50,919 nt of DNA. Source: Acidobacteriota bacterium (GTDB taxonomy: Bacteria > Acidobacteriota > CAIWXX01). Position 1 is the stretch's first letter. Every line of letters begins with the position of its first letter. Of the stretch, positions 38,705 to 48,777 are shown in pieces. The translations under genes and the position numbers were made by a program. The stretch lies in the NCBI GenBank assembly GCA_016191015.1, contig JACPPM010000217.1:1-50919 (forward strand), written 5' to 3'. Under the pieces are notes generated by a model. The model saw only the letters and a program-made list of their open reading frames with translations, searched no databases and had not been told where the DNA came from.

Positions 38705-39262
38705 ATGAACAAAACTGTCGCAACTCTTTTCGCGCTCTCGCTGTTCACCGCGTCGAGTGCTTCGGCGCAGCCTGGCTTTGCGGAGCCTTTTCCGATGCTA
38801 CCCCCGCCGGGAATGATGACGTCGAACGGCACGTTGATTCCGCCTCATGACCGGATCGTCGAGGTGTTGACGAAGGTTCTCGGGCTTACAACAAAGCAGC
38901 AGGCCGCATGGAAGAGCTTGAGAGCCGGAGCGGAGAAGCGCGTCGAGTCGCCCCTGACAGAGCTCAAGAACCTGCACCAGCAGATTCGTGCGAAGCTCGA
39001 GAGCGATACCGCCGACCCCGCGGATATCGGCCAATTGATGATCGACGCGTATGCCACCGAGAAGCAGATCTACGCCGCCGCCAACCCGGTGGACGACTCC
39101 TTCCTCGCCATCCTGACAGATGCACAGCGCACCAAGCTCGACATCTTCCGCGAGATCGTGGAGGCGACGCTGCCCTTCCCGCTGCCCGGCCCCTGGCCGA
39201 GCTTCCCGGTCTTCACACGTGATCATCGCCCACCGCACGAGACAAAAGGAGAATCACAATGA
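38705..39262 (+). CDS. Spy/CpxP-like periplasmic protein
   Basis: 185 residues from the ATG at 38705, which has GGAGGAGGTGG about 10 bases upstream; ATGs at 38654 and 38600 are in frame. A signal peptide (KTVATLFALSLFTASSASAQ) is followed by helices: VEVLTKVLGLTTKQQAAWKSL and DSFLAILTDAQRTKLDIFRE, the two LTxxQ-type motifs of the Spy/CpxP family, with ELKNLHQQIRAKLES between. Such proteins are periplasmic chaperones or metal-sensing negative regulators of envelope-stress systems, so a role in sensing the envelope state fits. Its stop overlaps the CotH start by four bases (ATGA), making it the head of the CotH operon. A CpxR-like box lies upstream. Confidence 0.85.
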   Translation: MNKTVATLFALSLFTASSASAQPGFAEPFPMLPPPGMMTSNGTLIPPHDRIVEVLTKVLGLTTKQQAAWKSLRAGAEKRVESPLTELKNLHQQIRAKLESDTADPADIGQLMIDAYATEKQIYAAANPVDDSFLAILTDAQRTKLDIFREIVEATLPFPLPGPWPSFPVFTRDHRPPHETKGESQ

Positions 39263-41889
39263 TCCCAAGCACGCAACGATCGAGATTTCCGAGATTGAGC
39301 GATCCGTGGGGGTTCATCGTTACCCCGTTCGCCCTGACCACACTGCTTATGCTGAGCCTCCTCACGCCGCACATGGGGGCGGCAGACGAGGCAGCAGCGT
39401 TCTTCGATGACCCAGGCGTGCACGAAATCCGCCTCACGTTCGCCGACGAAGGATGGTACGGCAAACTGTATGACAGCCACGCGAATGACTCTGACGACCC
39501 ATACTTCCCGGCTTCTTTCGCTGGTGAAGGCGTAGCGATTCCCCAAATCGGCGTGCGCTTCAAGGGCAACTCATCGTTCATGGGCGCCGGCACAAGCGTG
39601 AAGCGGCCCTTCAAGCTCGACTTCGACGCCTACGATGACGACGCCCGGTTCTTCGGCATCGCCAAGCTCAATCTCCACAATGGATTCAGGGATCCCAGCA
39701 TGCTTCGCGAGAAGCTCTTCCTTGACTTCGCCGGCCGGTTTGTCCCCGCTCCGCGTGCGACGTTCGTCCGGCTCGTGGTCAATGGAACCTACTGGGGGCT
39801 GTACACGGCTGTCGAGCAGGTTGACAGCACCTTCGTTCGGAGCCGGTTCGGGAGTGACGAGGATGGAAACCTGTTCAAGGGTCAGGCGAGTGACGAAGGC
39901 GGAGGGGACCCCACGGCGGATTTCGGCTCCGACCTCACCTACCTGGGCGCTGATCCCACGGAGTACAAGAAATACTACCAGCTCAAGACCAACGAGGCGA
40001 TCGATGACTATTCCCAGCTCATCAAGCTCATCGACGTCCTCAACAACTCCGCACCCCCGTCGTTCCCCAAGAATCTCGAGCCGCTCCTCGACGTTCGTGA
40101 GACACTGTATTCGCTCGCGCTCAACAACCTCTTCGTGAATCTCGATTCCTACAACGGATCGGCTCACAACTACTACCTCTACCAGCGTGACGACACGGGC
40201 GCCTTCTCTCACATCTTCTGGGATACCAACGAAGCGTTCGGCCGGTTTCTGATGGGAGTCGACGCCGACACGGATATTCACGAGATGGACCCCTTCTGGC
40301 TTCCGTCCCAGGATGCAGCAGGCCAGGCCCAGAAACGGCCGTTGATGGAGCAGCTATGGGCCAACTCGTCCTACAAGAATGACTACCTTTGCGCCATGAA
40401 GGATCTCCTGAGCGGGGGCTTCGACAAGGCCACGATGTCCCGTCAAGTCACCGCCCTCGCCAAGGTCATCCGTGCCGAGCTCAAGGCCGATCCCAACAAG
40501 CTCTATAGCTATGACGAGTTTGAGCAATCCCTCACGAGCGACATCTCCGACGGGTTCCAGACGATCTACGGGTTGGTGCCATACGTCGAGCGCCGCGCAG
40601 CATATATGAAAACCCGTCTCGACGAGCTGGCCCCGACCTGTTCGGACGCAGCTACGGGCCTCGCCGGTGTGCTCCGCATCAACGAGCTCATGGCGGAGAA
40701 CGCCCATACGCTGGAAGACCCGGATGATCCGGGCGAGTACCCGGATTGGATCGAGCTCCACAATTCCGGCACCAAGGCCATCGATCTCAAGGGACTGTGG
40801 CTCACCGATGACCTACTGGCGCCGACGAAGCACCGGATCGACACTTCAGTGATCGTGCCCGCCAAGGGGTTTGTCGTCCTGTTTGCCGATAGAGACTCCG
40901 AGCAGGGAGGGAAGCATCTTGGTCTGAGCCTCTCCGCGAGCGGCGACGGCATCGCCGTCATCGCAGCCGACGGCCACACGGTGATCGATAGCACCAGCTT
41001 CGGCATACAGGCACCTGACACTGCGCGCGGCCGCCTGCCGGATGGATCCGGGTCCTGGTACATGCTCGCCCCAGCCAGCCCGGGTGCGAGCAACGCCGGA
41101 TCATCCAAGTCACCGCCGGCCTTCGTCGCCGTCAATCACGCACCCTCGCACCCAACGGCGGTGCAGAAAGCGACCGTGACCGCAACCATCGCCTCCGAAG
41201 GGAAGCTGAAGTCAGTTGCCCTGTCCTATCGCGTGAAAGGGAAGAGCTTCGTCAATGTCAAGATGACCGCGCCATCGGGTGGGAGATGGACCGCGAGCAT
41301 CCCGGCGGCGAAGAACGGAACCACGATCGAGTACTACCTCAAAGCCACCGACACCGTGGGCAGATCCGCGACAAGCCCAGCGGACGCACCTGCCAGCCTG
41401 CACTCCTATGTTGTCGGCAGCTCGATGCCGAAGCTATGGATCAACGAGGTGATGGCCGAGAACGACACGACGATCCAGGACCCCGATGGGACCGGCTTTC
41501 CCGATTGGATCGAGATCTACAACGCCGGCGCCGAAGCCGTCGCGATCGGCGGCATGTACTTGACCGACGACCCGACAGACCCCGCGCGCTTTCGGATACC
41601 GGACGGAGTTGAGGTGCCGGCACGTGGATTCATTCTCTTCTGGGCCGACAATGACCCTGACCAGGGGGATACTCACGCGAGCTTCAAGCTCGGCGTGAGC
41701 GGCGAGACCATCGCCCTCGTTGACGCGGACGGGGCCACAGTCATCGACTCGGTCAGCTACCCTGCTCTCGCAACGGACGTCTCCTATGGTCGCAAGAAGG
41801 ACGGCGCGACGGCCTGGAAGAAACTCACCAAGGCCACGCCCGGTACGAGCAATGGGGGCAGTTCCAACAATGTGCAGCCCCGGACGTAG
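39259..41889 (+). CDS. CotH kinase-like protein with two lamin-tail domains
   Basis: 876 residues. A signal peptide or anchor (PFALTTLLMLSLLTPHMGAA) is followed by a CotH domain (about 55-450): the KRPFKLDFD segment with Lys115, YWGLYTAVEQVDSTF, and WDTNEAFG with Asp322, matching the ATP- and metal-binding parts of the CotH atypical kinase fold. Two lamin-tail (LTD) domains follow (about 472-615 and 724-860; each with INEx-MAEN and PDWIEL/PDWIEI). CotH proteins phosphorylate Ser of secreted or envelope proteins. It overlaps the Spy-like gene by four bases, and the HlyD-like gene begins 11 bases after it. A collapsed paralogue lies at 45877-46165. Confidence 0.93.
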   Translation: MIPSTQRSRFPRLSDPWGFIVTPFALTTLLMLSLLTPHMGAADEAAAFFDDPGVHEIRLTFADEGWYGKLYDSHANDSDDPYFPASFAGEGVAIPQIGVRFKGNSSFMGAGTSVKRPFKLDFDAYDDDARFFGIAKLNLHNGFRDPSMLREKLFLDFAGRFVPAPRATFVRLVVNGTYWGLYTAVEQVDSTFVRSRFGSDEDGNLFKGQASDEGGGDPTADFGSDLTYLGADPTEYKKYYQLKTNEAIDDYSQLIKLIDVLNNSAPPSFPKNLEPLLDVRETLYSLALNNLFVNLDSYNGSAHNYYLYQRDDTGAFSHIFWDTNEAFGRFLMGVDADTDIHEMDPFWLPSQDAAGQAQKRPLMEQLWANSSYKNDYLCAMKDLLSGGFDKATMSRQVTALAKVIRAELKADPNKLYSYDEFEQSLTSDISDGFQTIYGLVPYVERRAAYMKTRLDELAPTCSDAATGLAGVLRINELMAENAHTLEDPDDPGEYPDWIELHNSGTKAIDLKGLWLTDDLLAPTKHRIDTSVIVPAKGFVVLFADRDSEQGGKHLGLSLSASGDGIAVIAADGHTVIDSTSFGIQAPDTARGRLPDGSGSWYMLAPASPGASNAGSSKSPPAFVAVNHAPSHPTAVQKATVTATIASEGKLKSVALSYRVKGKSFVNVKMTAPSGGRWTASIPAAKNGTTIEYYLKATDTVGRSATSPADAPASLHSYVVGSSMPKLWINEVMAENDTTIQDPDGTGFPDWIEIYNAGAEAVAIGGMYLTDDPTDPARFRIPDGVEVPARGFILFWADNDPDQGDTHASFKLGVSGETIALVDADGATVIDSVSYPALATDVSYGRKKDGATAWKKLTKATPGTSNGGSSNNVQPRT

Positions 41890-41900
41890 GGACGAACGCG

Positions 41901-43010
41901 ATGGCTGAGGTTGCTCAGATGCTCGGAGGCCCTCGTCGACCGTGGAAGCATCGGATGCTCGGCATGCTGTCATTGGGCATTCTTTCGTGGATGGGCATCG
42001 TTGGTTCCCCGTGGAGCGGCGTGCGCCTGCCGGCAGTCGTCGAAGCAGGCCGCACCTTCTCACTGTCCGTCGTGGAAGGAGGTCGTGTTCAGTGGAACCT
42101 GCGGGACGGCCGCCGGCCGGGCGGCTCCAGCCTCCTCCGCCAATCCGTGCGCGCGTATGATGGAGGAGACCAGGTGGAGCTCGCGCTCGTGCCCGGCGTC
42201 GCGGCTGGAGAATCGGTTCGTGCCGGCCAGCAGATTGCGTCATTGCGGTCGGTCCGCGAGGAGAGCCGGCTCCTCGAGCAGCGCTCCGAGCGGGCATCGC
42301 TCCTGGCCCGCCGTCAGTTGCTGATGGCGGGCGGGCGGCCGGAGGTGGTGGCCGAGGCCGAGCGGAACCTGGATGTTGTGCGCGCCCGGCGGGAGGTGGT
42401 GCGGGTCGAGCTGGATCGCGCCAGGTCCTTGGCCGAGCTGGGGTTGATCAGCGCGGTCGATCTCGAGAAGCTGCAAGCTTCCGACGACGTGCATCGGCTG
42501 CAGATCGAGCATGCCGCCGCCGCCGTGGACGTGGCTCGCGCCACGCCCCGGACTGAGGAGCTCGCGTCTCTCGATGCTCGCATTGCAGCCATTGACGCGA
42601 CTATTCACGAAGCCGAGGCTCTGCTTGCAGGCACGACCGTCCTGGCCCCGATCGACGGTGTCGCCCGTGTCGGCGAGGACAATGCAGCACTCGATATCCT
42701 CGATCTCAGGACGATCTACCTGGCCGTGGGTGTGCCGATGCACCAGCGCGCACGCCTCGAGCTCGGTGCGCCCGTTGAGTTCACCCCTGCCACGGCGCCC
42801 CAGACGGTCCTGACCGGGACGCTCATCGAGATATCGGAAGAGACTGTCCTCGTACGCGGAGCGCCGTCGGTCTGGGCCAGCGTTGTCGTGGACAACGGGA
42901 GCGGTGCCCTCGCGGCCGGCATGTCAGGTATGGCCACGATCGCGGTGGACCGGTCACCATGGCGGTATCTGGCTGGACTCGGCCGGTCCATCCTCCAAAG
43001 CCTGTCATGA
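41901..43010 (+). CDS. HlyD-like membrane fusion protein
   Basis: 369 residues. One N-terminal helix (HRMLGMLSLGILSWMGIVGSPW) anchors it; a long coiled coil (about 120-230; ERASLLARRQLL, RREVVRVELDRARSLAELGLIS, DVHRLQIEHAAAAVDV) lies between the two halves of a lipoyl-like barrel (VRAGQQIASLR and GTTVLAPIDGVARVGED). This is the plan of periplasmic adaptor (HlyD/EmrA) proteins, which link inner-membrane transporters to outer-membrane channels; no transporter ATPase or RND gene is adjacent, so here the partner may be another cassette protein. The ATG at 41919 is an alternative start with a better ribosome-binding site. It overlaps the VTC gene by four bases. Confidence 0.88.
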   Translation: MAEVAQMLGGPRRPWKHRMLGMLSLGILSWMGIVGSPWSGVRLPAVVEAGRTFSLSVVEGGRVQWNLRDGRRPGGSSLLRQSVRAYDGGDQVELALVPGVAAGESVRAGQQIASLRSVREESRLLEQRSERASLLARRQLLMAGGRPEVVAEAERNLDVVRARREVVRVELDRARSLAELGLISAVDLEKLQASDDVHRLQIEHAAAAVDVARATPRTEELASLDARIAAIDATIHEAEALLAGTTVLAPIDGVARVGEDNAALDILDLRTIYLAVGVPMHQRARLELGAPVEFTPATAPQTVLTGTLIEISEETVLVRGAPSVWASVVVDNGSGALAAGMSGMATIAVDRSPWRYLAGLGRSILQSLS

Positions 43011-43816
43011 GCCCACTCTATGAGGGTGGCCGTTTCGAGCTCAAATACGTGCTTCCGGCAGCATGTCGGGCGGATGTCTTGCGATTGACTCAACCCCATG
43101 TGCAACCGGATCCCCATGCCGTGGAGCTGCCAAACGGGCGTCGCGGGTACTTCGTGCGCAGCCTCTACCTCGATACATCCGACCTCGCCGACTACTTTGA
43201 TCGCCTCGACCGGAAGCGGGTCCGCAATCGGCTGCGTGTTCGAACGTATGGCCAGCCACAGCAGAAGCAGCCTGTCTTCATCGAGGTCAAACGCAAATCG
43301 GGGCCCTGGGTGATCAAGCACCGCGCGGCGGTAGGCGACGCTGATGAATGGTGTCGGTGCCCTGCCGCCAGACCGTGGGTGACGTTTGCCTCCCGCGTCG
43401 AGGGACGCGGCCGCTACGCGGCATCGGCATTTCTGCAACTGGTGGAGGGGGCCGAGCGCAGTCCGGTGTCGCTTGTGCACTACGAGCGTGAGGTGTTCGT
43501 ACCTCTCGAAAAGGACTCACGTCGAGTCCGGTTGACCCTCGACACTCACGTCGCTGCCAGCAGCGTATCGAGCGCGCGTGATCTCTTCGCACCGGCCACG
43601 ATCGATCTCATACCTCCGGACTGGCTGGTCATGGAGCTGAAGTTCGAGCGTTTCGCTCCGGCCTGGATGACACGCTTGCGGCGCGAGCTGGGTGTCACGG
43701 CGGTCCCGGTCTCCAAGTTCGGGCTCTCCGTGGCTCAGGTTCTGCGCCCGGCCTACCCGGACGAGCTCCATGCTCTGCTGCCGGCACCGATTCTCCAGAG
43801 AAGGAGAGCGGCATGA
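43007..43816 (+). CDS. VTC-domain polyphosphate polymerase-like protein
   Basis: 269 residues forming one triphosphate-tunnel (VTC) domain: RFELKYVLP with Glu11 and Lys13, YFVRSLYLDTSD, KRVRNRLRVRTYG, VFIEVKRKSGPWVIKHRA and LVMELKFERFAPAWM. These Glu, Arg and Lys pairs line the tunnel in VTC4 and related enzymes, so nucleotide or polyphosphate chemistry is expected. Bacterial members are often found beside CotH and DUF4956 genes. It has no membrane helix or signal peptide, so it is cytoplasmic. Overlaps of four bases with the HlyD-like gene and with the DUF4956 gene show coupled translation. Confidence 0.92.
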   Translation: MSPLYEGGRFELKYVLPAACRADVLRLTQPHVQPDPHAVELPNGRRGYFVRSLYLDTSDLADYFDRLDRKRVRNRLRVRTYGQPQQKQPVFIEVKRKSGPWVIKHRAAVGDADEWCRCPAARPWVTFASRVEGRGRYAASAFLQLVEGAERSPVSLVHYEREVFVPLEKDSRRVRLTLDTHVAASSVSSARDLFAPATIDLIPPDWLVMELKFERFAPAWMTRLRRELGVTAVPVSKFGLSVAQVLRPAYPDELHALLPAPILQRRRAA

Positions 43817-44514
43817 ACGAGACGGATTTCGGGCGCGCGCTCGAGCCCGTGATGGCTGGGGATGGCGGCCAGGTCCTTGCGGCCATGCTGCTCTCTCTCG
43901 TTCTCGGCGTCGCGGTCGCGCTTCTGTACCGTGTTTCGGTGCCAGGCCGGGTGCTGTCTCCGACGATTCAAAACTCTCTGGTGTTGCTCGCCATGGTCTC
44001 CGCAATGGTCATGATGGCGATCGGCAATAGCGTCGCGCGCGCCTTCGCACTCGTCGGCGCTCTTTCCATCGTTCGCTTCCGCACGCGGCTTCGAACGGCC
44101 TGGGACATCAGCTTCGTCTTTCTGAGCCTTGCCGTCGGGATCGGCTGTGGCGTGTCTTCCTACCACATCACGATCGTCGGCACCGTGCTCATCGCCCTCG
44201 CCGTCCTCGCGCTCAACGTCCTCCGCCTCACGGGAATGCGCGCCGATTGCATCCACATGCTCCGGTGCGACGTGGCCTCGTACGAGGGGATTGAGGCGGC
44301 CATGAACGCAGTCCTCGACCGCTTCGTCGCGCGCCGGTGGTTGATGGAGGCCCGTTCACTGCGATTCGGCGAGAGCCTCTCTCTGCGCTATCGAGTCCTC
44401 TTGCGCGGCCCCGATCGGCTCGGCGCCCTTCTCCGCGAGCTGGCCGGCGTCGAGGGGATCGAGCGCGTCGTGCTCGACACGACGGAGGAGGCGGCAGACG
44501 CAGAAGACGCATAG
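43813..44514 (+). CDS. DUF4956 membrane protein
   Basis: 233 residues with four helices (QVLAAMLLSLVLGVAVALLY, ILSPTIQNSLVLLAMVSAMVMMAIG-like, FVFLSLAVGIGCGVSSYHITI, TVLIALAVLALNVLRLTG) and the DUF4956 signature RAFALVGALSIVRFRTRLRT, followed by a cytoplasmic ferredoxin-like domain (about 145-225). The family resembles MgtC in plan and regularly accompanies VTC and CotH genes; its job is unknown, but an inner-membrane channel or adaptor for the VTC product is a reasonable guess. It overlaps the VTC gene by four bases. The FadL-like gene follows after 75 bases. Confidence 0.92.
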   Translation: MNETDFGRALEPVMAGDGGQVLAAMLLSLVLGVAVALLYRVSVPGRVLSPTIQNSLVLLAMVSAMVMMAIGNSVARAFALVGALSIVRFRTRLRTAWDISFVFLSLAVGIGCGVSSYHITIVGTVLIALAVLALNVLRLTGMRADCIHMLRCDVASYEGIEAAMNAVLDRFVARRWLMEARSLRFGESLSLRYRVLLRGPDRLGALLRELAGVEGIERVVLDTTEEAADAEDA

Positions 44515-44589
44515 ATGGGCCGGCGGATCAGAACCGCCGGCGAGATCCGGTCACTCGCAATCATGTTGACACATCCCAAAGGAGGGAAA

Positions 44590-45843
44590 ATGAAATCACC
44601 AAGGTCAGTTGCAGTTCTCGTGGGCTTCCTCATGGCCGGCGCGGCACCGGCGATCCACGCTGCCGGCTACGCGATCTATGAGCACGGTGCCAGAGCGATG
44701 GCGATGGGGGGTGCATTCACCGCCATCGCCGAGGGCCCCTACGCCATTTTCTACAACCCGGCCGGCATCGTCTGGAACGAAGGCACGGAGATCGGTTTCG
44801 GAACCACATTCATCAAGCCGTCCAGCTCATTCACCAGCGCCGCTGGCGCCGAGACCGACCAGGTCGAACGAACGTTCTTTCCTACGCACATCTATATGAC
44901 GAAGGACATCGGGGAGAAGGCGGCACTCGGCATCGGCTTCTTCTCGCCCTTTGGCCTGGCTGCCGAATGGCCGTCGAGCTGGACCGGCAAGTATCGCACG
45001 GTCAAGGCCGAATTGGAGACCTACTATCTGAACCCGACCCTGGCATACGAGCTCACCCCGAAGCTGTCTGTGGCCGGCGGCGTGGACGTGATCATCTCAA
45101 CGGCCGCTCTCGGACAGAAGATCTCTGCCGGCGGAGGACCGTTCGGTAGCCAGGGCGATGTGACGATGGACCTCACCGGAGACGGAACCGCGGTCAGCTT
45201 CAACGCCGGCATGCTCTACAAGCCCAGCGACAAGGTTTCGATCGGAGTCTCCTACCGGCACGGCGCCAATCTGGAGCTCGATGGACTGGCGGATTTCACC
45301 GCAGACGGAATGCTGTCATACGCCTTCCCGGACGGCAGGGCGACGACCGAGATCCATGTGCCCTACCTCATGGCGGCCGGTGTTGCCTTCAAGCCGTTCG
45401 ATCGCACCCGGATCGCTGTGGACGTCGACTTTCATGGATGGTCGGGCGCGGAGCAGATCACGATCACATACGACAACGCAATCGGCGACCCGTCTCATCA
45501 GACCAAGGAGAGCACGCTCGTTCAGAACTACGAGAATTCGGTCGTGCTCCGGATCGGACTCGAGCAGCAGATAGGCGATTCGATGTACCTGCGGGGCGGC
45601 TACGTCTACGATCAGACGCCTGTGCAGGACGCCTACCTCTCCCCCTCTCTGCCCGATGCGAACAGAAACGACTTCACGGCCGGCTTCGGGATCGCCCTGA
45701 AGAAGCTGAATCTCGATTTTGCGTACATGGCAGTCCTCAACGAGGATCGCGAAAGCGAGAACCAGGATCTTCCCGAGCTACTCGGTGGCTCGTATGAGAC
45801 GGTGGCGCATCTGTTCTCTGTGAGCCTCGGCTACAGGTTCTAG
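44590..45843 (+). CDS. FadL-family outer-membrane transport protein
   Basis: 417 residues from the ATG at 44590, which follows GGAGGG; an extension to 44515 is not supported. After the signal peptide (VAVLVGFLMAGAAPAIHAA) comes GYAIYEHGARAMAMGGAFTAIAEGPYAIFYNPAGI, with the NPAG motif of FadL/TodX/OmpP1 proteins. The rest is beta-barrel strands, ending SLGYRF with a terminal aromatic residue as outer-membrane barrels do. Relatives take up fatty acids or other hydrophobic compounds. The gene is 75 bases after DUF4956 on the same strand, so it may belong to the same operon. Confidence 0.93.
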   Translation: MKSPRSVAVLVGFLMAGAAPAIHAAGYAIYEHGARAMAMGGAFTAIAEGPYAIFYNPAGIVWNEGTEIGFGTTFIKPSSSFTSAAGAETDQVERTFFPTHIYMTKDIGEKAALGIGFFSPFGLAAEWPSSWTGKYRTVKAELETYYLNPTLAYELTPKLSVAGGVDVIISTAALGQKISAGGGPFGSQGDVTMDLTGDGTAVSFNAGMLYKPSDKVSIGVSYRHGANLELDGLADFTADGMLSYAFPDGRATTEIHVPYLMAAGVAFKPFDRTRIAVDVDFHGWSGAEQITITYDNAIGDPSHQTKESTLVQNYENSVVLRIGLEQQIGDSMYLRGGYVYDQTPVQDAYLSPSLPDANRNDFTAGFGIALKKLNLDFAYMAVLNEDRESENQDLPELLGGSYETVAHLFSVSLGYRF

Positions 45844-45876: not shown

Positions 45877-46165
45877 ATGATCCTGACCGATCGATGTTCG
45901 GAACATCTGAGATCCATCGACCCGTGCAGGTCGAGCTCAGTCATTCTGCTGCTCGCACTGGCAACAGTGCTCTTTCCTTGCGTGCTCCAGCCGCACATCG
46001 CCGGAGCGGACGATGCGGCCGCGTTTTTCGACAATCCCGGCGTGCACGAAATCCGAATCACGTTTGCCGATGAAGGATGGGGCGGCTGCATGGAGGAAAT
46101 TCACCAAGGCCACACCGGGCAGGAGCAACCGGGGCGCTTCGTCGGTGGTCCGGCCCGACACGTAG
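45877..46165 (+). pseudogene. CotH-gene remnant made by an internal deletion
   Basis: The first 65 codons match the start of the CotH gene, with AAAFFDNPGVHEIRITFADEGW near the end (AAAFFDDPGVHEIRLTFADEGW in CotH). The DNA then aligns with the last 94 bases of CotH, ending at the same TAG (46163-46165), but in another frame; read in that frame it gives WRKFTKATPGRSN (CotH: WKKLTKATPGTSN). The junction falls in GAAGGATGG, which is at 39448 in CotH and as GAAGGACGG at 41796. So about 2,348 bp were lost between 9-bp direct repeats. The kinase gene follows at once. Confidence 0.9.
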
Positions 46166-46201: not shown

Positions 46202-48037
46202 ATGCAAAAACCAACGCCCGAGCCGACGCCGAGTGCTAGACTAGCGGAGATGCGTCGAACCCGGACCTATCGACCAAAGACACTCTGGATCATTGCCGGT
46301 CTCGTCGGGCTTCTCGTGATACTCGCGATTCTCCAGTACACCTGGTTGAAGAAGTTGAGTGAGGACGAGCGGCAGCGCCTGCAGGCGAGTGCGGAGGTGT
46401 CGGCGGCGCACTTCGGCGAGGACTTCGAGCGTGAGATGGCGCGCCCGCTCACCTTTTTTCTGCCAAATCCCACGGCCCCAGATGAGGATCCCGTGCAGGC
46501 GCTCATCGAGAAGTACCGGAGATGGCGGTCGGAGGCACGGTATCCGACTCTCATCGGAGGCGCCTACGTCGTGGAGAGGACGCGGGAGAACACATTGGTG
46601 GTCCGTCGAGTCGAGGGCGAGGGGCTGAGCGAGGGACATCGTCCATGGCCACGAGGGCTCGAGGCTCACCGGGAGGCCATTGGTCAGGGGGAGGTCATCT
46701 TCGCTCTCCTCGGAGACCTCCCTGGGTTCCTGGTCCCGCTCGCCCCCTTCCCCTTCATGCCACCCGCAGGCGATACCTTGCCCACGGTCCGTGGATATGC
46801 AGTGATCGAGCTCAACATCGAGTTCATATCGAAGAGTTTCATCCCGGAGCTCGTGGATCGCTACTTCGGCATCGCAAAGGGACTCGACCTCGATGTGACC
46901 ATCCTCAACGGCGCACACCCTCAGGAGGTGGTCTACACCACGAGTCAGTTGCCGCGCGACGGGCCCCCGCCACCCAAGGTCACCGAGAGGCTCTTGTTCT
47001 CGCTGCGAAACATTCCGGAGCTCGGCGAGAGGGACGAGGGGCGTCCGGGCAGCGTTGGCTTCCCGTACGGTCAGGGACCGCCGTCACCGCCGAACCTCCC
47101 GGCCTTCGCGCGTCTGTTTCCCCCTCTATTCCCGCTCCCCAGCGCGCAACTCGCAGGCGAATGGAGGATCGTGGTGACGCACCCCGATGGATCTTTGGAG
47201 GAAGCCGTCAGGCGAATGCACGTCAGGCAGCTCGCCATCGGCCTCTCTGTCCTTCTCTTGCTCGGTGTGAGCGGCGTGCTGGTGATCGTTTCAGGGCATC
47301 GGGCACAGATCCTGGCGCGACAGCAGATGGAGTTCGTCGCCGGCGTTTCGCACGAGCTGTGCACGCCTCTGACGGCAATCAGGTCCGCCGGGCAGAACCT
47401 CGCCGATGGCATCATCTCGGACCCACAGACGGTGAAGAGCTACGGGAGCCTGGTCGAACGAGAGGGGCGCCGCCTCTCGGAGATGCTCACCGGCGTCATG
47501 GCCTTCGCGGGGATCGCATCCGGGCAGAGAGTGTACACACGAAAGTGCGTTTCGGTCTCTGCGGTCATCGACGAGGTCCTGGCAGACTGCAAGAGAGCTC
47601 TTGACGAGAGAGGGTTTACCGTCGAGACGCAGATTGAGGAGGTGGAGGTGGACGCGGATCCGTCCGCGTTGCGCCGCGCGCTCCAGAACCTCATCGACAA
47701 TGCGATCAAGTACGCCGGCTCCGAGCGGTGGATTGGAGTGGGCGCCAAGAAACTACTGGGAGAGGGAGGAAGCGAGATCGTCATCACCGTGACGGACCGC
47801 GGGATAGGGATTCCCAAGAAAGACCTGCCCCATATCTACGATCCTTTCTATCGATCCGAGGCGGTCGCCGCAGGTGGGACCCCCGGGAGCGGGCTGGGGC
47901 TGAATGTGGTGAGGCACATCATCGAAGGACACGGCGGCCGCATCGTGGTCGAGAGCACGCCCGGCAGGGGCACCTCCTTCGCACTCCATCTACCGGAATC
48001 CACGACCGCTGCCGGTCTGACTGGAGGTTCTGCATGA
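46202..48037 (+). CDS. Sensor histidine kinase
   Basis: About 611 residues from the ATG at 46202, preceded by GAGGTGGG; the ATG at 46250 is an alternative. Two helices (LWIIAGLVGLLVILAILQY and LAIGLSVLLLLGVSGVLVIVS) flank a periplasmic region (about 50-340). The cytoplasmic part has the HisKA motif GVSHELCTPLTAIRS with phospho-acceptor His384, then an HATPase domain (NLIDNAIKYAG, DRGIGIPKKDLPHIYDPFYR, GSGLGLNVVRHIIEGHGG). The residue after HEL is Cys387, where nearly all relatives have Arg. Its stop overlaps the OmpR-type regulator start by four bases, so the two form a cognate pair. Confidence 0.93.
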   Translation: MQKPTPEPTPSARLAEMRRTRTYRPKTLWIIAGLVGLLVILAILQYTWLKKLSEDERQRLQASAEVSAAHFGEDFEREMARPLTFFLPNPTAPDEDPVQALIEKYRRWRSEARYPTLIGGAYVVERTRENTLVVRRVEGEGLSEGHRPWPRGLEAHREAIGQGEVIFALLGDLPGFLVPLAPFPFMPPAGDTLPTVRGYAVIELNIEFISKSFIPELVDRYFGIAKGLDLDVTILNGAHPQEVVYTTSQLPRDGPPPPKVTERLLFSLRNIPELGERDEGRPGSVGFPYGQGPPSPPNLPAFARLFPPLFPLPSAQLAGEWRIVVTHPDGSLEEAVRRMHVRQLAIGLSVLLLLGVSGVLVIVSGHRAQILARQQMEFVAGVSHELCTPLTAIRSAGQNLADGIISDPQTVKSYGSLVEREGRRLSEMLTGVMAFAGIASGQRVYTRKCVSVSAVIDEVLADCKRALDERGFTVETQIEEVEVDADPSALRRALQNLIDNAIKYAGSERWIGVGAKKLLGEGGSEIVITVTDRGIGIPKKDLPHIYDPFYRSEAVAAGGTPGSGLGLNVVRHIIEGHGGRIVVESTPGRGTSFALHLPESTTAAGLTGGSA

Positions 48038-48777
48038 TGCCCGACACCGGGACGCAAGGGAGGGCGCCTGACGAGGAGCGCGCGATACCCGCGGCCAGGA
48101 TCCTGCTGGTCGAAGACGAGCCGAGCCTAGTGTTGACGCTGCGCGATCGCCTGGTGGCAAACGGCTATCACGTCGAGTCGTGCGGAGACGGCCAGTCGGC
48201 GTTGGCGCTCGCGAATCGCAAGCCGTTCGACCTCGTCATTCTCGATGTCATGCTCCCGGGAATGGACGGGTTGGACGTCTGTCGCGAGCTGCGGAGGCGT
48301 GGAATGGAGCTTCCGATTCTCATGTTGACCGCGCGATCGCAGGTCGTCGACAAAGTCGTCGGACTGAAGCTGGGAGCGGACGACTATGTGACGAAGCCCT
48401 TCGAGATGATGGAGCTTCTGGCCCGAGTGGAGGCGATGCTTCGACGGGGCCGCGGGCCGCTGCTGCTAACCGGCGAGGGGGTGTTTTGCTTTGGCGATAT
48501 CCGCGTCGATTTCAAGAGAGCCGAAGTGTGTCGCAACGGCGAGGTCATCGCCCTGTCGGCGATGGAGTATCGATTGCTCCGCCATTTCGTCGAGAACCGC
48601 GGAGCTGTGATTTCACGCGACAAGCTCCTCGACCACGTATGGGGCTATGATGCCACCGCGTTCTCACGCACCGTCGACGTGCACGTCGCATCCTTGCGCC
48701 AGAAGATCGAACCCTCCCCGCAGCACCCACGATTCATCATCACGGTGCACAGACTGGGATACCGTTTCGACGGATGA
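48034..48777 (+). CDS. OmpR/PhoB-type response regulator
   Basis: 247 residues: a receiver domain (about 22-138; ILLVEDEPSLVLTLRD, acceptor Asp71 in LVILDVMLPG, Lys in YVTKPFEMMEL) and an OmpR-type winged helix (about 148-245; ALSAMEYRLLRHFVENRG, ending TVHRLGYRFDG). The receiver carries a short N-terminal extension. It is translationally coupled to the kinase at 46202. OmpR-type regulators bind direct repeats spaced about one helical turn; the TTAC repeats at 36169 and 38568 are candidate targets because the CpxP-like gene of the cassette lies behind one of them. Confidence 0.95.
   Translation: MMPDTGTQGRAPDEERAIPAARILLVEDEPSLVLTLRDRLVANGYHVESCGDGQSALALANRKPFDLVILDVMLPGMDGLDVCRELRRRGMELPILMLTARSQVVDKVVGLKLGADDYVTKPFEMMELLARVEAMLRRGRGPLLLTGEGVFCFGDIRVDFKRAEVCRNGEVIALSAMEYRLLRHFVENRGAVISRDKLLDHVWGYDATAFSRTVDVHVASLRQKIEPSPQHPRFIITVHRLGYRFDG

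Follow-up and report, generated by a model that had tools for sequence, protein, structure and literature searches.

We find that four adjacent genes in an Acidobacteriota genome, encoding a secreted CotH-type kinase, an HlyD-type periplasmic adaptor, a VTC triphosphate-tunnel enzyme and a DUF4956 membrane protein, form a recurrent unit (positions 39259–44514 of the window, the whole 50,919-nucleotide stretch of DNA analysed here). We propose that they may constitute one envelope-spanning, adaptor-bearing functional module that makes a phosphate polymer in the cytosol and exports it to the cell surface, a reading to which we give a probability of about 0.4; a role of the set in the envelope and in phosphate biology is plausible. 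The genes lie in the following setting:

38705–39262, plus strand: secreted Spy-like (LTXXQ) protein (PF07813, E=2.1e-6); local, not a conserved part
39259–41889, plus strand: secreted CotH-type kinase (PF08757, E=3.7e-62, with two LTD domains and CBM56); core
41901–43010, plus strand: TolC-type periplasmic adaptor of the HlyD/MacA fold (HlyD_D23, AF2 model, RLS motif); core
43007–43816, plus strand: VTC triphosphate-tunnel enzyme (PF09359, E=1.7e-28); core
43813–44514, plus strand: DUF4956 membrane protein, MgtC-like (PF16316, E=3.1e-11); core
44590–45843, plus strand: FadL/OmpP1 outer-membrane barrel (PF03349, Toluene_X, E=3e-56); local, not conserved
45953–46135, plus strand: relic of a CotH gene (blastn against the window CotH gene)
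46250–48037 and 48034–48777: sensor histidine kinase and OmpR-type regulator, a pair directly downstream

ATGA overlaps join the Spy-like gene to CotH (stop 39262, start 39259; translational coupling), HlyD to VTC (stop 43010, start 43007) and VTC to DUF4956 (stop 43816, start 43813). The CotH stop (41889) and the HlyD start (41901) are separated by 11 bases, and the DUF4956 stop (44514) and the FadL start (44590) by 75 bases, with a ribosome site (AGGAGGG) preceding FadL. A preliminary description of this region had given the same gene order and junctions, which proved exact to the base, and its family names (Spy-like, CotH, HlyD, VTC, DUF4956 and FadL) were each confirmed by Pfam (Spy-like as LTXXQ), the HlyD_D23 match (3e-4) lying below the curated cut-off and the fold being clear from structure search. 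NCBIfam returned no names for CotH, VTC or DUF4956. A promoter scan of the region detected no sigma-70-type site, and terminator-like sites occurred there at about chance level. The genes from Spy-like through DUF4956 look like one transcript, to which FadL may or may not belong. The core of the downstream histidine kinase is closest to PnpS/PhoR-type NCBIfam models and the regulator to RpaB/MtrA/PhoB-type models, in both cases far below cut-off; judged from sequence, control by phosphate or envelope stress through this pair is possible.

The limits of the unit are defined by a second copy in the same 6.4-Mb genome. On another contig, CotH, HlyD, VTC and DUF4956 occur in identical order, without a Spy-like gene and without FadL; identity between the copies is 80% for DUF4956, 71% for VTC and about 62% (62–63%) for HlyD. 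That two copies in one genome share exactly four genes counts in favour of a four-gene module. The window's class, in which HlyD was also searched for, comprises two genomes only. FadL and Spy-like are ordinary gene families in the source genome, given its four above-cut-off FadL loci and eight LTXXQ loci. The preliminary description had treated all six genes as probably one envelope system and had asked whether Spy-like, HlyD and FadL genes recur beside CotH, VTC and DUF4956. HlyD does (23 of 95 loci), and CotH, HlyD, VTC and DUF4956 stand as a recurrent unit. FadL was seen in the window only (0 of the 94 other loci), and a Spy-like gene was met at one other locus (L106:7387–7821), directly upstream of HlyD-VTC-DUF4956. 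With both genes missing from the second copy as well, we rejected them as core or constant parts. The CotH relic lies just downstream of FadL, before the histidine kinase gene; a stretch from the N-terminal end (134 nt at 75% DNA identity) runs straight into one from the C-terminal end (64 nt at 80%), the middle of the gene having been deleted, and this points to an earlier duplication and deletion here.

We examined recurrence across genomes with a DUF4956-alignment scan of named genomes, which gave 80 loci, and counted neighbours over 95 DUF4956/VTC loci, using a codon model for gene calling in GC-rich loci. Because loci were chosen by DUF4956, its presence is a condition and not a result. 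VTC lies within 1.5 kb of DUF4956 in 67/95 loci, and 59/95 have a CotH kinase domain no more than 7 kb away. An HlyD adaptor gene is found within 1.5 kb, directly adjacent, in 23/95, where about 1.2 would be expected if such genes were as dense there as in the rest of these loci. Among 247 genomes of the same phylum, 13 carry VTC, 27 carry CotH and 10 carry both (Fisher p = 1e-8), and in most of these 10 the genes are physically linked. Co-occurrence of VTC with CotH and adjacency of HlyD both point to linkage beyond chance. The adaptor occurs in two gene orders, HlyD-VTC-DUF4956 (18 loci) and VTC-DUF4956-HlyD (5 loci), and its loci belong to Myxococcota, Bdellovibrionota, LCP-89, Electryoneota, Zixiibacteriota, Ignavibacteriota, Bacteroidota, Planctomycetota and Pseudomonadota. 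It is present throughout the window's own DUF4956 clade, whose eight members are the window, the second copy, and Myxococcota and Bdellovibrionota kin. On the DUF4956 tree the two adaptor arrangements are explained by 3 and 2 changes, where shuffling gave means of about 16 and 5. Chloroflexota are mostly monoderm. The adaptor was found in none of their five loci, two of which are nested beside adaptor-bearing kin on the DUF4956 tree; this small sample fits a role that depends on an outer membrane. Eleven adaptor loci have no CotH or LTD gene within 7 kb.

Other genes accompany parts of the set. A 94-residue stub right after DUF4956 (L024:10892–11176) resembles the start of the adaptor of a neighbouring clade and is probably a broken adaptor gene. 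In about ten loci (L044–L049, L057, L078, L085, L106), a secreted β-propeller of 250–410 residues is encoded beside HlyD-VTC-DUF4956; it is SdiA-regulated or phytase-like in four loci and had no clear Pfam match in those tested from L044–L049. Such a propeller also adjoins DUF4956 in three Poribacteria, and none was found in the window. In Poribacteria loci (L068, L082, L086, L091, L102 and others), a CotH-LTD(-CBM56) gene directly follows DUF4956 and VTC is absent from the vicinity, which shows that DUF4956 and CotH can exist together without VTC. Adaptor-less CotH-VTC-DUF4956 loci (L058, L060, L065, L080, L094, L114) share a membrane-anchored protein of about 340 residues beside CotH or DUF4956, with no Pfam match for the one tested.

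The window CotH carries a signal peptide, two lamin-tail (LTD) domains and a CBM56-like domain, and matches the solved CotH structure 5JD9 (E=1.6e-14). It has in common with that Bacillus spore-coat kinase the kinase fold and two Asp positions, the catalytic-type pair being kept as D296 (LDSY) and D322 (WD); unlike Bacillus CotH, it is secreted, fused to LTD and CBM56 and encoded outside a spore former's coat cluster. In B. subtilis CotH, D228 is catalytic and the D228Q substitution inactivates the enzyme (PMC7821199); the column aligned with D228 through a short insertion is likely its counterpart in the window protein.

Genes for CotH, a polyphosphate polymerase and DUF4956 are known as accessory genes of Gram-positive Pel clusters (PMC7112168, PMC12345266). 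In Streptococcus intermedius they are SIR_1592–1594, and deletion of DUF4956 (SIR_1592) or CotH (SIR_1594) lowers Pel and aggregation (PMC12345266). As in the Gram-positive set, the three families are contiguous on one strand in the window and in the second copy, there with HlyD between CotH and VTC, and in both kinds of set CotH is secreted, the polymerase has no membrane segment and DUF4956 is in the membrane. The Gram-positive set, however, lacks a periplasmic adaptor and is tied to the pel operon and DUF4832, whereas the window set has the adaptor and no Pel genes beside it: none was present among the Pfam-scanned flanking genes (36–49 kb of the window), and none was seen around the second copy. 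The three-gene synteny had been reported as not found outside Pel loci (PMC12345266), but the cotH-VTC-DUF4956 synteny occurs in many phyla without a pel link. Our literature search found no paper naming CotH, VTC and DUF4956 together by those names. The preliminary description had called the three genes frequent neighbours; the cotH-polymerase-DUF4956 combination had in fact been described in Gram-positive Pel clusters, and what is new is the adaptor-bearing form, on which we found no paper in the literature searched.

The model of DUF4956 (AF2 pLDDT 88.9) has five membrane helices and a C-terminal ACT-like domain, which matches ACT structures including the MgtC C-terminus (2lqj). The Pfam MgtC family does not match the window protein and gives weak matches to 41/69 homologues (best 1.9e-5). 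The layout of membrane helices plus ACT domain is common to MgtC and DUF4956, but an ALSIxRFRT motif and linkage to VTC are DUF4956's own. R88 and R90 are invariant (69/69), and positions R40, R76 and R/K94 are mostly basic; with the ACT domain placed inside, the model would put R40, R88, R90 and R94 on the cytosolic side.

Likeness to MgtC is part of what favours the main rival explanation, control of a surface polymer, which we consider somewhat unlikely. The set would regulate how an exopolysaccharide or surface glycan is made or anchored, CotH would phosphorylate a surface protein or sugar, and VTC with DUF4956 would adjust phosphate or ATP supply, DUF4956 acting on the ATP synthase in the manner of MgtC, with no polyphosphate export. 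The S. intermedius deletion phenotypes agree with this, as do the CBM56 and LTD domains of the window CotH and the glycan genes that adjoin some CotH-VTC-DUF4956 loci. Surface-polymer control nevertheless leaves unexplained why a TolC-type adaptor has been retained beside VTC-DUF4956 over deep divergence, and no glycan synthesis genes were seen immediately flanking either the window set or its second copy.

VTC has no membrane segment and is predicted from sequence to be a cytosolic polyphosphate polymerase. The bacterial VTC profile matches yeast Vtc4 with E=1.6e-22, and in the profile alignment Vtc4 residues K200, R264, R266, K281 and K294 correspond to K13, R77, R79, K95 and K104 of the window VTC, and R361, R373, E426, K428 and K458 to R161, R175, E210, K212 and K237. 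All ten mapped tunnel residues are kept in 57–58 of 58 homologues, so the lack of tunnel residues that the preliminary description had considered a possible objection did not materialize. We take K200, K281, K294, R361, R373 and K428 to be important as well as the residues named catalytic in Vtc4, namely R264, R266, E426 and K458. The latter assignments come from published work (PMC9911596, PMC4641920).

The acidic patch used by tripolyphosphatases is missing from Vtc4 (PMC4641920). When the patch of AtTTM3 (E2, E4, E90, E171) is mapped onto the window VTC, E2 becomes R9, E171 becomes K212, E4 is kept as E11 and E90 has no mapped counterpart in the VTC alignment; the window protein thus does not have the tripolyphosphatase patch. 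E11 is invariant (58/58 homologues). With R9 and K212 basic and E11 kept, the bacterial VTC leans towards a polymerase without being identical to Vtc4, and the invariant hydrolase-type glutamate makes hydrolysis or other triphosphate chemistry possible. The TTM fold serves many chemistries, and VTC could be a triphosphate hydrolase or nucleotide processor whose soluble small-molecule product (for example, a nucleotide or tripolyphosphate signal) is exported through the adaptor. E11 matches one acidic-patch glutamate of tripolyphosphatases, but two other mapped patch positions are basic as in Vtc4, and the equivalent of K458, needed by polymerases, is kept in 57/58 homologues; we regard this explanation as improbable. 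The source genome has no PPK1 but does have three PPK2 genes, of which two are neighbours on contig C186. PPK1 is present in 7/13 VTC genomes, the same as its overall frequency, and VTC as a general replacement for PPK1 was rejected on this ground.

The yeast VTC complex (Vtc1/3/4) couples polyphosphate synthesis to export via basic membrane helices (PMC9911596). It has the same catalytic TTM domain as bacterial VTC, with all mapped tunnel residues in common, and both systems pair VTC with a small membrane protein bearing basic residues. Bacterial VTC differs in having no SPX domain and in its invariant E11, absent in Vtc4, and its membrane partner is the MgtC-like DUF4956 and not a Vtc1 domain. 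Since polyphosphate passes through basic membrane helices in yeast, we propose by analogy that DUF4956 may be the membrane partner or conduit of VTC.

The adaptor model (AF2 pLDDT 88.8) comprises an N-terminal membrane helix, lipoyl halves, a long hairpin and a barrel, which is the domain set of TolC-type adaptors (membrane anchor, lipoyl, α-hairpin, barrel). Foldseek retrieved MacA of MacAB-TolC (E=1e-16) and EmrA (5e-16), where a sequence search against the PDB gave nothing useful. At the hairpin tip, R173, L177 and S184 form the TolC-docking motif RxxxLxxxxxxS (defined in PMC3391258). This motif is present at the tip in 11/23 adaptors, or 12/23 with one RLT variant, and five adaptors of the Myxococcota/Bdellovibrionota type do not have it. 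Other contigs of the genome encode eight or more complete TolC-family proteins; no TolC gene is linked to the set. The window adaptor thus has the fold, hairpin and RLS tip motif of the MacA/EmrA-type adaptors of tripartite TolC pumps, but it is only about 19% identical to them and its linked partners are VTC and DUF4956, not a pump. A further rival, in which the adaptor is part of a conventional efflux pump or type I secretion system and owes its position to operon hitch-hiking, is very unlikely. In its favour, the fold and motif match those of MacA, EmrA and AcrA, and a MacAB-like ABC set lies upstream in L046, but no transporter gene lies beside the adaptor in the window, the second copy or most loci, and in 23 loci this adaptor type stays beside VTC-DUF4956, the tree requiring few changes.

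Sequence and structural models show which genes are conserved together, how the proteins fold, which catalytic and docking residues they carry, and where VTC (no membrane segment) and CotH (signal peptide) are placed; from these we infer polymerase activity, transport by DUF4956, docking to TolC and a role of CotH as acceptor or user. In the proposed export module, cytosolic VTC, sitting on DUF4956, would use ATP or a different NTP to build the phosphate polymer within its tunnel. The invariant arginines of DUF4956 would surround the entrance on the cytosolic side of the membrane bundle and hand the chain outward as it grows, like the helices of yeast Vtc1/3/4. The adaptor would bridge the periplasm, linking the polymer path to TolC, and secreted CotH, held at the surface by its LTD and CBM domains, would use the exported phosphate or attach it to surface proteins or glycans. 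The TolC-family proteins and the missing PPK1 of the source genome count for an export module. Against it count E11, the three PPK2 genes, the adaptors without RLS, the 11 loci without CotH or LTD genes and the lack of a linked TolC. The likeness of DUF4956 to MgtC also counts against it, MgtC not being known, to our knowledge, as a polymer channel. The most specific version of the idea, a trans-envelope machine of diderm bacteria in which VTC, an MgtC-like conduit, a MacA-like adaptor and TolC export polyphosphate as a phosphoryl donor to surface CotH, where there is no ATP, is doubtful.

If true, the export machine would be to prokaryotes what the VTC translocase is to yeast, and it would add to the tripartite systems a new type driven at the inner membrane by a polymerase and not by a pump. 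The module makes testable how secreted kinases might be supplied with a phosphate donor outside the cell and by which route polyphosphate might reach bacterial surfaces. The gene set, until now reported only next to the Pel operons of Gram-positive bacteria, is seen to be wider, and DUF4956, a widespread family, gains a concrete functional hypothesis.
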